Notes: generated from the letters alone by a model not told the origin. Counted from the first letter of the stretch, positions 6,256 through 61,423 are shown. The stretch is 64,000 nucleotides of DNA from Minwuia sp. (GCA_029210175.1 JARGPL010000043.1:124001-188000), one strand, 5' to 3'. Numbers and translations are program-made.

Positions 6256-7482
6256 TCAGGCAGGACTGAAGATCTCCGACGGCTGCGAGACGCCGGGCAG
6301 GGCGTGGAACCCGAGTGATTCCAGCTTCGCGCCCTGTGCCGCCAGCCTGGCGAAGGATTCCGTCATCAGGACAGGGCGGTCGAGGGTGCGTGTCAGGGTT
6401 TCGACGCGACTGACCTCGTTCACCGCTCGTCCGATCACCGTGAAGTCCAGCCGGTCAGCAGAACCGATGTTGCCGAAGATCACATCGCCCGCGTGCAGGC
6501 CGATCCCGACCTTCAGCGACGGCTTGCCCTCCTGCCCGCGCCGGACGTTCAGTTCGGCGAGGTTGGCGATACCTTCCTGCGCGGCGGCGAGGGCGGAATG
6601 GCAGGCGAGCCAGGCTGTCCGCTCATCCATCGGGAAGATCGCCAGCATGCCGTCGCCCATGAACTTCAGGACCTCGCCACCCATCGCCTTCACCGGTTCG
6701 ATCATGCAATCGAAGTAATCGTCCAGTGTCGCGATGATCTGGTGACCTTCGAGCCTGTCCGACAGGCGTGTGAAGCCACGCAGGTCACAGAGGAAGATCG
6801 CCGCCCGAATGGCTTCCCCCTCGGCCCGCTGGATGGTGCCGGTCAGCACCCTGCGTGCCGCCGCCTCCCCCAGGTAGATGCTGAGCAGGCTGCCCGTCGC
6901 GCCATAGGCGTTCATCAGTTCAAAGCGAACCGTGATCAGCGGCATGATGTCCTGCAGCCGGGCAATCTCCGCGTTTTCGAATCCGCCAGGGCGTGTGGTG
7001 GTGAAGGAAATGACGTTCACCTCCCCGGTGGAAAAACGCATCGGCAGGGCCACGTAATCAGTCGCCCCCTCCTGCTTCAAATCGCGCCAGACATCGAACT
7101 CCAGCAGGTCGTCGTCCAGGTCGAGGCGTTGCCTGATCCGCTCCGCGCCCTGATGGATCAGGAAGATCGGGCTCTTGAGGTAGAACTCCGATGTCATGGC
7201 GCCATGTCCGCGCAGGATGACCTCCGCCTCCTGCCCCCTGCGCCAGATCAGGTTGCGCGATACATACAGCGGGTGCAGGGACAGCAGGCCACAGAAGGCG
7301 CGGGAAAGTTCCATGCCCTCCGCATCCAGCTTCTTGCAGAGATCCTCGAAGAAATCGGTCTCGGCGTTGGGCCGGTAAAGTTCGGTCATCAGCCAGTTTG
7401 CCAGCGGATCCGCACGCCATCCTGTCGCGATGATATTCACCCTTGTCTCTTCATGGCTTTGTGGCATCTTCGCGTCGCTCAT
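6256..7482 (-). CDS. Adenylate/guanylate cyclase with N-terminal sensory-type domain
   Basis: This 408-residue protein has an unassigned N-terminal ~195 residues (no signal peptide, no obvious membrane helix) and a C-terminal class III cyclase domain (~220-400). Key residues are all present: metal Asp233 (FLCDLRGFT) and Asp277 (FMGDG), base-selecting Lys273 and Thr348, and transition-state Asn355 and Arg359 (AVNEVSRVE). Lys with Thr is usual for bacterial adenylate cyclases. I chose the ATG at 7480-7482, which has GAGG seven bases upstream, over an in-frame start at 7587. It resembles the partial cyclase at 1-482. The Nfu gene is divergent. Confidence 0.9.
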   Translation of the reverse strand: MSDAKMPQSHEETRVNIIATGWRADPLANWLMTELYRPNAETDFFEDLCKKLDAEGMELSRAFCGLLSLHPLYVSRNLIWRRGQEAEVILRGHGAMTSEFYLKSPIFLIHQGAERIRQRLDLDDDLLEFDVWRDLKQEGATDYVALPMRFSTGEVNVISFTTTRPGGFENAEIARLQDIMPLITVRFELMNAYGATGSLLSIYLGEAAARRVLTGTIQRAEGEAIRAAIFLCDLRGFTRLSDRLEGHQIIATLDDYFDCMIEPVKAMGGEVLKFMGDGMLAIFPMDERTAWLACHSALAAAQEGIANLAELNVRRGQEGKPSLKVGIGLHAGDVIFGNIGSADRLDFTVIGRAVNEVSRVETLTRTLDRPVLMTESFARLAAQGAKLESLGFHALPGVSQPSEIFSPA

Positions 7483-7634
7483 GGGACGACCTCTATCGGC
7501 GTGGACGAAGTCCCGGCTTGATTGCGGAACACATTGCGCCACATAAGCGCGGTAACGGCACAAACAACTACAAACGCCAGAACGCATTCAGAAGCCGGGC
7601 GGTTGTCGTCAACCCCGGCAAACCGGAGGAACCG

Positions 7635-9251: not shown

Positions 9252-10198
9252 CTTCAGGCAGCGATCGCCAGACCGCCCCCTGGGCCATTCATGTCATCAT
9301 CCTGCTGGCTGTGGTCGTGCCGCTGGTGGTCATGGCCTGGCTGGTGGCGGGGATTGAAGCGACGGGTCCGAAGCCCGGCGCCATCGAGGCGACATCCCGA
9401 CCGATCATCCTGGCCCAGCCAAAGCTGATCCGGCCACGGACGGTTTCTGCCCTGGCATCGCGGTTCGAATCCGTCGGCTACGATCTGGAAAGTGTGCGGG
9501 GCAACGAAATCCCGCCGGCCTTTGTTCTGGTGCGGCTGCCGAGCGACTGGCAGCGGGAGATGCCCAGCGACGTGCGCAAGAGCCTGTTCTTCCGCTCGAT
9601 CCTGCCGCTGGTGATGCAGGTGAACGGGGAAATCGCGATGGAACGGGACCGGCTTCTCGCCCTCCGCGACAACGCTCGGTTGCCCGACCGTGACCGGGAC
9701 TGGCTGCGACGGACAGCCGAGAGCTACCGGGCGCTGGACGCGAAGACGGGGGAAATCGACTGGGATACGCTTCTGCAGCGCGTTGACCTGATCCCGCCAT
9801 CGCTTGCCCTGGCGCAGGCAGCGCTGGAAAGCGGTTGGGGGCGGTCGCGGTTTGCGCGCGAAGGCAACGCCCTGTTCGGCCAGTGGACCTGGACCAAGGG
9901 CGACGGAATCGTTCCCGCCGACCGGGCCGCAGGAAAGACCCATTCCGTGAAGCGGTTTCGCAGCCTGCTCGCCTCTGTGCGCGGCTACATGAAGAACCTG
10001 AACCGGGCCGGGCCTTACGGGCGCATGCGGGTCGCCCGAACGAAACTGGCCAACCAGGGCAAGCCCTTCACGGGCAGGGAACTGGCCGGTTACCTCGACA
10101 AGTATTCCGAGGAGGGCCAGGCATATGTGAAGAAGGTCCGGGCCATGATCTCCGTCAATCAGCTTGGCCCCCTCGACCAGTTGATCAACGGTCGCTGA
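9248..10198 (+). CDS. Bax-like glucosaminidase, membrane-anchored copy
   Basis: The 316-residue paralogue of the preceding gene. Instead of a cleavable signal it has one N-terminal helix (HVIILLAVVVPLVVMAWLVA, ~15-35), so it is probably anchored in the inner membrane facing the periplasm. The same core follows: SLALAQAALESGWGRSRFA with likely catalytic Glu194, GNALFGQWTWTKGDGIVP and SVRGYMKNLN. The order and spacing of motifs show a tandem duplication that has diverged, mainly at the N-terminus. Division of labour between a free and a tethered hydrolase is inference. Confidence 0.88.
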   Translation: MTSGSDRQTAPWAIHVIILLAVVVPLVVMAWLVAGIEATGPKPGAIEATSRPIILAQPKLIRPRTVSALASRFESVGYDLESVRGNEIPPAFVLVRLPSDWQREMPSDVRKSLFFRSILPLVMQVNGEIAMERDRLLALRDNARLPDRDRDWLRRTAESYRALDAKTGEIDWDTLLQRVDLIPPSLALAQAALESGWGRSRFAREGNALFGQWTWTKGDGIVPADRAAGKTHSVKRFRSLLASVRGYMKNLNRAGPYGRMRVARTKLANQGKPFTGRELAGYLDKYSEEGQAYVKKVRAMISVNQLGPLDQLINGR

Positions 10199-57902: not shown

Positions 57903-58280
57903 ATGAAGGTGACGACGGCGAATTTCGGGGACGCAATCGTGGTCAGGGTGGCCGGGCGAATAGATCAGTCTTCGGCGGGTGACTTCCAGAAGGAACTGAT
58001 GACCCAGGTGGAAACGGCCATCGGCACCGAAAAGCAGGTCGTCGTTGACCTCTCCAAGGTGGATTACATCTCCAGTGTCGGTCTGCGCGCCCTGATGGTG
58101 GCCAACAAGCAGGCCAAGCCGAAGGGCGTGACCATCCGCATTGCGTCGATGCAGGAAGTGGTCAAGGAAGTCTTCACGATCAGTCACTTCGACAAGGTTT
58201 TCCCGACCTTCGAGGAAATGCCGAAGGCGCTGCAGGCCGTATCCGCCCTCGCCGCAGCGGCCTACACGGAAGAGGACTGA
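57903..58280 (+). CDS. STAS-domain anti-sigma factor antagonist
   Basis: A 125-residue SpoIIAA/RsbV-like protein. VTTANFGDAIVVRVAGRIDQ, then VVVDLSKVDYISSVGLRALM: Ser58 in DYISSVG aligns with the phosphorylated Ser of SpoIIAA. In partner switching it is phosphorylated by an anti-sigma kinase and dephosphorylated by a PP2C phosphatase such as the one encoded at 59249. ATG 57903 is chosen; ATG 57885 would add six residues. Six bases separate it from the metallo-hydrolase gene. Confidence 0.9.
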   Translation: MKVTTANFGDAIVVRVAGRIDQSSAGDFQKELMTQVETAIGTEKQVVVDLSKVDYISSVGLRALMVANKQAKPKGVTIRIASMQEVVKEVFTISHFDKVFPTFEEMPKALQAVSALAAAAYTEED

Positions 58281-58286
58281 GCGGCA

Positions 58287-59234
58287 ATGCGTATCCGTTT
58301 CTGGGGAACGCGCGGGTCAATCCCGACATCGATGAATGCCGACCACGTGCGCGACAAGATCAGCGCTGCGGTGAAAGCGGTGATCGAGGCCGGTGGCGAG
58401 ACGGATGCAGCCATCGACGCCCTGCCGTTCCACATGCGTGGCACCTACGGCGGTGAGAGTTCGTGCGTGCAGATCGAGACCGGTGGCCCCGAATACATCA
58501 TCTGTGACATGGGGTCGGGGTCGCGGCGGCTGGCGCTGAATGCCCTCGGCAAGCACGGCCCAGGGTCGCCGCAGGTCTACAATATCTTTCAGAGCCACGT
58601 GCACTGGGACCACATCATGGGGTTCCCGTTCTTCATCCCCGCTTTCATCCCCGGCAACGTGATCCGCATTCATGGCTGTCATGACGTTCTGGAAAAGGCC
58701 TACCGCCGCCAGCAGGACAATCCGAGCTTTCCCGTGCCCTTTGATTTCCTGGGCGCGACAATCGAGTTCGTGCAGCTGGAACCCGAGCAGACCTACGAGA
58801 TCGCGGGAACCACGGTCACCCCGTTCCGGCAATTGCATGCGGGCGATTCCTATGGCTATCGCTTCGAGAAGGATGGCAAGGTCGCGGTCTATTCGACGGA
58901 CTCCGAGCACAAGCTGGAAGACCAGGACGAGACCGATTACTTCGTGCGCTATTTCAAGGATGCGGACGCGGTCGTGTTCGACACCATGTATTCCCTGGCC
59001 GACGCGACGTCGCTGAAGGAAGACTGGGGTCATTCATCCAACATGGTGGCGGTGGAACTTTGCCAGATGGCGTCGGTGAAGACGCTTTGCATGTTCCATC
59101 ATGAACCGGTCTACAGCGATGCGCAGATCGATCAGGTCCTGGCCGAGACCCGCCGTTTCGAAGAGATATCGCGTGGTGACGGACAGCCGCTGCACGTGGT
59201 CGCGTCCTACGACGGGCTTGAAATCGAACTCTGA
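58287..59234 (+). CDS. MBL-fold metallo-hydrolase in partner-switch operon
   Basis: A 315-residue metallo-beta-lactamase-fold enzyme. MRIRFWGTRGSIPTS opens it; SHVHWDH supplies His104, His106, Asp108 and His109; further ligands are in LHAGDSYGYRF and MFHHEP. The RFWGTRGSIP opening is shared with phosphodiesterase-type (PhnP/ribonuclease-like) members, so cyclic-nucleotide or phosphodiester hydrolysis is possible. It sits between the STAS and phosphatase genes with gaps of 6 and 14 bases, so it is co-transcribed. Confidence 0.87.
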   Translation: MRIRFWGTRGSIPTSMNADHVRDKISAAVKAVIEAGGETDAAIDALPFHMRGTYGGESSCVQIETGGPEYIICDMGSGSRRLALNALGKHGPGSPQVYNIFQSHVHWDHIMGFPFFIPAFIPGNVIRIHGCHDVLEKAYRRQQDNPSFPVPFDFLGATIEFVQLEPEQTYEIAGTTVTPFRQLHAGDSYGYRFEKDGKVAVYSTDSEHKLEDQDETDYFVRYFKDADAVVFDTMYSLADATSLKEDWGHSSNMVAVELCQMASVKTLCMFHHEPVYSDAQIDQVLAETRRFEEISRGDGQPLHVVASYDGLEIEL

Positions 59235-59248
59235 GCGAGGGCGTCGAG

Positions 59249-61423
59249 ATGGCTGACCCCGCAACGGTGACGGACCCGGCCAGCGCCGCGAACCAGAACC
59301 CTGAAGATATCGGCCCGGACCTGCGTGGGTTTCGCGCCATCGTCGGTTTCTGGCGGGGCCGTGCGCTCGGACTTGTGGTCCTGGCCCTGTGTCTGATCAT
59401 CGATATCGCGTTCCTGACAGACAATCCGCTGCGGCGTGAACTGTATGACGTGTCACAGCAGCTGATGCCGCGTCCGGTGGAGAGTGATCTGCCTGTCATC
59501 GTGGCGATCGATGAACGCAGCATTGCCGAGATCGGACAGTGGCCATGGCCGCGAACCGTCGTTGCCGACCTGATCGACAGGATGGGGCAGGGTGGTGCGA
59601 TCACCATCGGGGTCGATGTACTGTTTCTGGATCCAGACCGCCAGTCACCGCGCCACATCACGGCCCGGATGGATGACCCGCCAGCCGGTGTGGTCAGTTA
59701 CCTGCAATCCCTGCCGGACTATGATGAAGAACTGGCTGCAACGATTGCGCAGTGGCCGGTGGTTCTGGGGCTGGGGGGCACCCGATCCCGTGCCGGGTTC
59801 AATGGGCCGGTCAGGGCGTTTCCCGTGGCATTCGCGGATCCGTCACTGAAGGATCTGCTGGTCACCTTTCCGGGGGCAGACCAGTCGGTGGAGCAGGTCT
59901 CACGATCGGCCACCGGCCAGGGCCTGCTGAACGCCATCGAAGACCCGGACGCGATCATCCGGCGCATTCCGGCGGTGGCGCTGGTGGATGGCCGCCCCGT
60001 GCCTGCGTTCGCGCTGGAAATGCTGCGGGTGGCGCTCGGCGGCTTGCTGACAGTGAAGGGGACGCCCGGGCGGATCGACGGGGTACAGGTCGGTGACTGG
60101 TTCGTACCGACGGAATCCGACGGCACCATCTACGTGCCGTTCTCGCCGCCCTTCGCCAGTCGCTATGTTTCCGCGGTCGACGTGCTGCGCGACGATGATG
60201 TTGCCCTGTCCCTCGAGGGCGCGATTGCCATGATCGGACTGACCGGGCAGGGCCTGGTCGATCTGCAGACATCACCCTTGCGCTTTCGCGCACCGGGGAT
60301 CGATGTGCATGCGCAACTGGTCGAGGCCATTCACGAGGAATACTATATCTCCCGCCCCGACTGGACGCGGTGGCTCGAACTCGCGGCGCTGATCGCGGTT
60401 GGTCTGATCTTCGTCTTTGTCGTGCCGGTGCTGCCATTGAAGGCCGGGGTGCCGCTGATCATCCTTGTACTGGCGCTGACGGTGGGCGGCGGGCTTGTTG
60501 CCTACGCCACGGAACGTGTCTTCGTCGATACCATCGGGGCGGCCGTGAGTGGCGTGATTACCGGTATCGCCATGCTGACGGTCACCCTGATGATCGCGAA
60601 TGCGCACCGCAAGGCACTGGGGCTGCACCTGCAGCGCCAGCGGGAGGAACGGGCGCGGCTGCAGGGTGAACTCGACGCGGCGCGGGAGATCCAGCTGGGC
60701 CTGCTGCCCGGCCTCGACACCCTGCCCGACATCAGTGCCCAGCTGTCACTGGCTGCGATGCTGGAACCGGCACGCGATGTGGGCGGCGACCTCTACGATT
60801 TCTTCATGATCGATGACGACCGGCTGTTCCTTTCGGTGGGTGATGTGTCCGGCAAGGGTGTCCCCGCCAGCCTGTTCATGGCCATTTCCAAGGCCCTCTG
60901 CAAGTCCGCAGTGCTGCGCGACATCGTGGAGATCGACGAGATCATGATGGCCGCGAATGCGGAGATCAGTCGCGAGAATCCGAACATGCTGTTCGTGACC
61001 CTTTTTGCCGGAATCCTGAACCTGCGTACGGGGCACCTGGACTATTGCAACGCCGGGCATGAACCGCCGCTGGTCTTCACACCGGGATCGGATGATATCC
61101 GTCTGATCGAAGGCGGCGGCGGCCCGCCGGTCTGCGTGATGGACGACTTCCCCTACATGGCCGACAGCGTCGATCTCGTGCCTGGTGAAATGGTGCTGAT
61201 CACCACCGACGGCATTGGCGAAGCGATGAACCATGACGGTGAACTGTATGGCAATGATCGCCTGTACGATCTGGTTCGGCGCTTGGGGTCGGATGCTGTA
61301 TCGGATGAACTGCAGGACACGCTCTATCGTGACGTGAAGGTGCACGCCGATGGTGCCCCCGCATCCGACGATATCACCATCATGGCGTTTCGCTGGATGC
61401 CGCCATCTCCAAACCGGGGTTGA
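59249..61423 (+). CDS. CHASE2-sensor PP2C/SpoIIE-type serine phosphatase
   Basis: A 724-residue inner-membrane sensor. One helix (~39-57) leads to a periplasmic CHASE2 domain (~62-370; VIVAIDERSIAEIGQWPWPR). Three helices (~373-450) and a short coiled coil (HLQRQREERARLQGELDAAR) connect to a cytoplasmic SpoIIE phosphatase domain (~475-720) with metal Asp residues in DVGGDLYDFF, VGDVSGKGVPASLF, TDGIGEAMNHDG and SDDITIMAF. It should dephosphorylate the STAS protein in response to an extracytoplasmic cue, as RsbU/SpoIIE do. Two genes upstream is that STAS partner. Confidence 0.93.
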   Translation: MADPATVTDPASAANQNPEDIGPDLRGFRAIVGFWRGRALGLVVLALCLIIDIAFLTDNPLRRELYDVSQQLMPRPVESDLPVIVAIDERSIAEIGQWPWPRTVVADLIDRMGQGGAITIGVDVLFLDPDRQSPRHITARMDDPPAGVVSYLQSLPDYDEELAATIAQWPVVLGLGGTRSRAGFNGPVRAFPVAFADPSLKDLLVTFPGADQSVEQVSRSATGQGLLNAIEDPDAIIRRIPAVALVDGRPVPAFALEMLRVALGGLLTVKGTPGRIDGVQVGDWFVPTESDGTIYVPFSPPFASRYVSAVDVLRDDDVALSLEGAIAMIGLTGQGLVDLQTSPLRFRAPGIDVHAQLVEAIHEEYYISRPDWTRWLELAALIAVGLIFVFVVPVLPLKAGVPLIILVLALTVGGGLVAYATERVFVDTIGAAVSGVITGIAMLTVTLMIANAHRKALGLHLQRQREERARLQGELDAAREIQLGLLPGLDTLPDISAQLSLAAMLEPARDVGGDLYDFFMIDDDRLFLSVGDVSGKGVPASLFMAISKALCKSAVLRDIVEIDEIMMAANAEISRENPNMLFVTLFAGILNLRTGHLDYCNAGHEPPLVFTPGSDDIRLIEGGGGPPVCVMDDFPYMADSVDLVPGEMVLITTDGIGEAMNHDGELYGNDRLYDLVRRLGSDAVSDELQDTLYRDVKVHADGAPASDDITIMAFRWMPPSPNRG

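Follow-up and report, generated by a model that had tools for sequence, protein, structure and literature searches.

The question raised by this locus is what an MBL-fold hydrolase does between the two genes of an apparent partner switch. We analysed a window of 64,000 nucleotides, by which we mean the whole stretch of DNA under study, from a 4.09-Mb genome whose closest relatives in collections include genomes labelled Minwuia (alphaproteobacteria). Three genes follow one another on the plus strand. The first (57903-58280) codes for a 125-aa STAS-domain switch protein of the RsbV/anti-sigma-factor-antagonist type, which matches the Pfam families STAS (67 bits) and STAS_2 and exceeds the cut-off of the NCBIfam model TIGR00377. 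Its predicted phosphorylation site, Ser58 (codon at 58074-58076), is the candidate phosphoacceptor and is a serine in 75 of 75 aligned STAS proteins of this module. The second gene (58287-59234) codes for the 315-aa hydrolase, which matches Lactamase_B_2 (PF12706, 58.5 bits). The third (59249-61423) codes for a 724-aa protein that joins a CHASE2 domain (residues 47-386, 59387-60406; PF05226, 162 bits, 2.5e-47), transmembrane segments and a SpoIIE/PP2C phosphatase domain (residues 522-716, 60812-61396; PF07228, 143.5 bits, 1e-41). A promoter scan was uninformative (1 found versus 0.9 expected). The sequence-only reading of this DNA had described the three genes, with Ser58 in the STAS protein, as tightly spaced and had taken the STAS protein and the phosphatase for a pair; the Pfam assignments and gaps of only 6 nt (STAS/hydrolase) and 14 nt (hydrolase/phosphatase) bear out the former, and the conservation of the two genes together across relatives agrees with the latter.

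That reading had also remarked that the window has no anti-sigma kinase or sigma gene, and had proposed a search for the HATPase kinase. The three genes indeed have neither of these as a neighbour, and the kinase candidate is encoded on another contig. A whole-genome profile search located a 140-aa RsbW-type protein (G000:C4:32953-33324, minus strand; L093:8939-9361; PF13581, 58 bits) with conserved residues E49, N53, D84, G108 and G111, divergent from a FecR gene on the same contig, C4 (L093 ~9431-9895, plus strand). It is the only compact RsbW-like kinase of the genome; the reading frames that hold the remaining HATPase_c_2 matches are at least 479 aa long, a length that suggests histidine kinases. 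The CHASE2-SpoIIE protein was likewise the one SpoIIE protein found. Besides the switch protein, the genome gave two STAS matches, of which, judged from sequence, one is a SulP-type transporter and the other a small STAS protein encoded next to a methyl-accepting-chemotaxis-like gene. With a single SpoIIE protein, a single compact kinase and other STAS matches of these kinds, phosphatase, switch protein and kinase therefore pair one to one in this genome. In relatives, kinase and FecR genes are also divergent neighbours, but directly after the phosphatase gene. The kinase is relocated with FecR in two other genomes (those of L015 and L016) and with both FecR and OmpA in three (L085, L089 and L091). 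That the kinase is missing from the locus thus reflects how the genes are arranged in this lineage; absence from the genome as a whole was considered and rejected, given the gene on C4 with its divergent FecR neighbour and the same split in related genomes.

Does the hydrolase belong to this system, as the sequence-only reading had supposed? Used as a query against GTDB genomes, the hydrolase returned 80 loci from alpha-, beta- and gammaproteobacteria, all chosen by hydrolase similarity. A STAS gene lies directly upstream of the hydrolase gene in 70 of the 76 loci with enough flanking sequence, and 71 of 72 STAS/hydrolase gene pairs overlap or are no more than 40 nt apart. Downstream, 61 of 71 loci have a CHASE2-SpoIIE gene. 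Most relatives carry a six-gene set comprising STAS, the hydrolase, the phosphatase, an RsbW-type HATPase_c_2 kinase, a FecR protein and an OmpA lipoprotein; among 62 loci, the kinase was found in 48, FecR in 46, OmpA in 45 and all six genes in 44. Beyond the module genes, no other gene was conserved among the neighbours of the 80 loci.

Genomes sampled regardless of the hydrolase gave the same picture. Among 200 Burkholderiales genomes, orthologs of the hydrolase (E of 1e-60 or better) and of the phosphatase (E of 1e-95 or better) occurred in the same 22 genomes, and neither occurred in any of the other 178 (Fisher p ~9e-30, an optimistic value since the genomes share ancestry). The next matches to the phosphatase query begin at 1e-68; those inspected proved to be either CHASE2 cyclases or different SpoIIE proteins. 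All 22 carriers have a STAS gene next to the hydrolase gene, and the kinase was found by profile in 21, the remaining locus (L179) showing the start of a kinase gene. The hydrolase is present in 16 of 385 alphaproteobacterial genomes, each time beside a STAS gene. These samples partly overlap, and shared ancestry makes any formal p-value from them optimistic. A phylum-wide sample contained no more than two true orthologs and was used chiefly as a control of generic MBL proteins; in a plasmid search, the matches listed were all generic relatives, at 34% identity or less. Standalone hydrolases were found at L026, L043 and L083; two neighbours of lone MBL proteins, inspected in case they concealed a STAS domain, matched nothing in Pfam. 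A hydrolase occurring mostly without the STAS and phosphatase genes would have spoken against membership, and across genomes the opposite was found. The co-occurrence rejects a random neighbour, and the hydrolase is almost certainly part of the switch system. Two loci (L039:2096-2941 and L247) carry a tandem pair of STAS domains upstream of the hydrolase instead of one. One module lies on a metagenome contig labelled Klebsiella pneumoniae (L081, CAMATU010000113.1), a label that may be wrong because the other carriers found are all environmental Proteobacteria.

We propose that the module works as a partner switch coupled to the membrane and directed at an enzyme, an explanation that, taken whole, we consider evenly poised between right and wrong. 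CHASE2, probably modulated by two envelope proteins, FecR and (in relatives) OmpA, would sense a periplasmic or envelope condition and would thereby govern how active the SpoIIE-type phosphatase is. The phosphatase would take the phosphate off Ser58 of the STAS protein, and the RsbW-type kinase, encoded here on contig C4 beside FecR, would put it on. In one of its two phosphorylation states, the STAS protein would bind the hydrolase and switch its activity, in a direction that could be either on or off. The enzyme would most likely be an atypical class-II cyclic-nucleotide phosphodiesterase, such that the module would lower, or spare, the cNMP made by the class III cyclases of these genomes.

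Several features bear on the nature of the enzyme. Its metal-binding motif (HVHWDH, 58596-58613) belongs to a catalytic set, HxHxDH together with H184, D205, H249 and H271, that is invariant in 64 of 64 aligned proteins, which argues that the hydrolase is kept active by selection. An AlphaFold2 model (pLDDT 89, pTM 0.90) gave Foldseek matches to YhfI, RNase Z, PhnP, yeast PDE1 and the cyclic-nucleotide nuclease Apyc1. The signature [T/S]HXHXDH marks the atypical class-II phosphodiesterases Rv1339, CpdA and YhfI, with a usually small residue at the second X (PMC9293780); the sequence SHVHWDH, together with PF12706, agrees with it except that the second X is a tryptophan. The curated NCBIfam model for cyclic-nucleotide-degrading phosphodiesterases (NF041851) gave 44.8 bits against a cut-off of 400, and the RNase Z model TIGR02651 gave 56.6 bits against 292.95. 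Since both models are missed widely, the substrate is a prediction: fold and motif make a cyclic nucleotide a plausible one, although we rate it slightly below an even chance. The earlier proposal of an activity on a nucleotide phosphodiester is therefore in keeping with fold and motif, as a predicted activity. Three generic hydrolase paralogs in the same genome (G000:C39:64763-65452, G000:C40:103013-103741 and G000:C9:75708-76424) share 34-36% identity with the protein and align only from residue 53.

The same wiring could instead control an RNase similar to RNase Z, or a phosphodiesterase acting on something other than cyclic nucleotides. The best NCBIfam matches of the hydrolase are indeed RNase Z models (2e-15), whose score slightly exceeds that of the cyclic-nucleotide phosphodiesterase model, and RNase Z structures are among the leading fold matches. 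However, that score falls far below the RNase Z cut-off, YhfI is among the top fold matches with Apyc1 next, and the motif fits the atypical class-II enzymes; we thus consider this alternative unlikely, if the best placed of those weighed here.

Is the hydrolase the target of the switch, or does it act on the switch? The sequence-only reading had taken the latter view, with the enzyme destroying a nucleotide messenger that controls the switch. Two natural fusions join STAS and the hydrolase through a linker (L024, 463 aa; L092, 451 aa), the only two seen, both in metagenome-assembled genomes. Cassettes of STAS, hydrolase and kinase occur with no phosphatase alongside (L069, L027, L029, L092 and L245); L069 and L245 are possibly the same organism. 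Up to 8 kb from the 80 loci, neither a sigma-like family nor an anti-sigma factor nor a diguanylate cyclase recurs as a conserved neighbour. The hydrolases of the switch family also share an insertion of about 36 residues (residues 14-52, 58326-58442) between strand 1 (FWGTRGS) and the YGG strand, which the AlphaFold2 model builds as helices at residues 18-34 and 39-44. The corresponding RGS-to-GG spacing is 42-51 in 100 of 100 switch-family proteins (a few genomes being represented twice) versus 10 in 25 of 25 generic relatives, and none of 28 loci of generic relatives has a STAS, kinase or SpoIIE gene within 1.5 kb.

An AlphaFold2 model of the L024 fusion reached a pTM of 0.81, compared with a simple estimate of ~0.67-0.70 for a freely floating STAS domain; to pair rows, its alignment drew on proteins fused in nature, on single proteins and on sequences read in frame through the STAS stop codon. 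This pTM, the one measure used here, hints that STAS packs against the hydrolase in the fusion. The wider MBL family already has output-domain members: in generic relatives at L112, L122 and L123, a response-regulator receiver domain precedes the MBL domain within one fused protein (Pfam confirms this for L112), an arrangement in which the MBL domain is the output of a two-component system, and we count L112 in favour of a hydrolase that is a target. The fusions, the cassettes, the family-specific insertion and the invariance of the catalytic residues all speak for the hydrolase being what the switch controls, and the fusions, the phosphatase-less cassettes and the absence of another conserved output gene make it the more likely target. 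A direct action of STAS on the hydrolase is, in our estimate, rather probable. The sequence-only reading, in which the enzyme controls the switch, thus probably had the direction the wrong way round.

Were the hydrolase nevertheless upstream, it would destroy a nucleotide messenger regulating the kinase or the phosphatase, and the true output would lie in trans, be it a sigma factor or a different protein. A phosphodiesterase fold suits such a role, and an output in trans is conceivable as no sigma gene is linked. Yet the hydrolase remains with STAS where the phosphatase is absent (L069, L027 and L245), it is fused to STAS and to neither phosphatase nor kinase, and CHASE2, being by family a periplasmic sensor, lies out of reach of a cytoplasmic messenger; an upstream hydrolase therefore seems improbable. 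Still less credible is an ordinary partner switch acting on an unlinked sigma factor with the hydrolase as a co-transcribed housekeeping passenger, which would suit the few standalone hydrolases but not the tight co-inheritance in alpha-, beta- and gammaproteobacteria, the fusions or the switch-specific insertion.

A hydrolase controlled by STAS would have precedents among partner switches with enzyme outputs. SiaABCD of Pseudomonas aeruginosa comprises a PP2C phosphatase, a kinase and an antagonist-like protein, and governs its enzyme, the diguanylate cyclase SiaD, through direct binding (PMC8457831, PMC7647112); HsbA/HsbD and BgrV/BgrR are further cases (PMC7647112), and control of c-di-GMP enzymes by PP2C, kinase and STAS proteins was predicted in a survey of Campylobacterota (PMC9239204). 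By analogy of parts, the closest functional counterpart of the module is SiaABCD. Both have a membrane PP2C phosphatase, a kinase and a phosphorylatable antagonist-like protein, and control of an enzyme rather than of a sigma factor is what we propose here. In contrast to SiaABCD, the enzyme of the module is an MBL hydrolase and not a diguanylate cyclase, none of which is conserved among its neighbours; the NCBIfam model for SiaA gives 40.1 bits here against a cut-off of 700; and the module adds FecR and OmpA.

With RsbU/RsbV/RsbW and SpoIIE/SpoIIAA/SpoIIAB, the module shares a STAS protein with a conserved serine, a SpoIIE-type phosphatase and an HATPase_c_2 kinase, but it has no linked sigma factor and the constant neighbour of STAS is the hydrolase. 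The latter resembles the atypical class-II phosphodiesterases Rv1339, CpdA of C. glutamicum and YhfI (PMC9293780) in PF12706, motif and fold, and differs from them in its helical insertion, its adjoining STAS gene and its score below the curated cut-off, its own activity being predicted. The open-access literature yielded no description of a STAS-MBL switch or of a module of CHASE2 with FecR, OmpA and an MBL protein, the related find being the cyclase clusters of Campylobacterota (PMC9239204). Among the published enzyme outputs of partner switches that we found, diguanylate cyclases predominate. A hydrolase output, if true, would extend the logic of the SpoIIE/STAS/RsbW switch to the degradation of a messenger, and would assign a role to an MBL subfamily that is conserved but unnamed, as well as to its FecR and OmpA partners in many Proteobacteria.

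The cyclases that could supply the messenger are numerous. As the sequence-only reading had pointed out, two lie elsewhere in the window, one at ~1-431, cut by the window start (G000:C9:123922-124431), and one at 6256-7587 on the minus strand; neither is linked to the switch. The genome has ten class III cyclase matches in total, two of which share reading frames with CHASE2 domains (one confirmed by Pfam). All 22 Burkholderiales genomes with the hydrolase have class III cyclases versus 126 of the 178 others, with medians of 8 versus 3 in genomes of ~3.7 Mb or more, computed over genomes having any cyclase; this enrichment may reflect a general richness in signalling.

In Campylobacterota, CHASE2 cyclases cluster with FecR and a cAMP phosphodiesterase (PMC9239204). 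The module likewise combines a CHASE2 sensor and FecR with a predicted link to cyclic-nucleotide turnover, whereas CHASE2 sits there on the cyclase and here on a phosphatase proposed to act through STAS. We tentatively suggest, as a possibility that falls somewhat short of probable, that these loci represent a widespread class of switches in which STAS, phosphorylated or not, would gate an MBL cyclic-nucleotide phosphodiesterase and so couple envelope sensing by CHASE2, FecR and OmpA to cNMP degradation, in parallel with the cNMP-making clusters of CHASE2 cyclases, FecR and OmpA. At three Burkholderiales loci (L189, L191 and L192), CHASE2 class III cyclases have FecR neighbours, and OmpA as well in L189 and L191, from the same families as those of the switch module; the same envelope parts thus seem to be used either for a cyclase or for a phosphatase.
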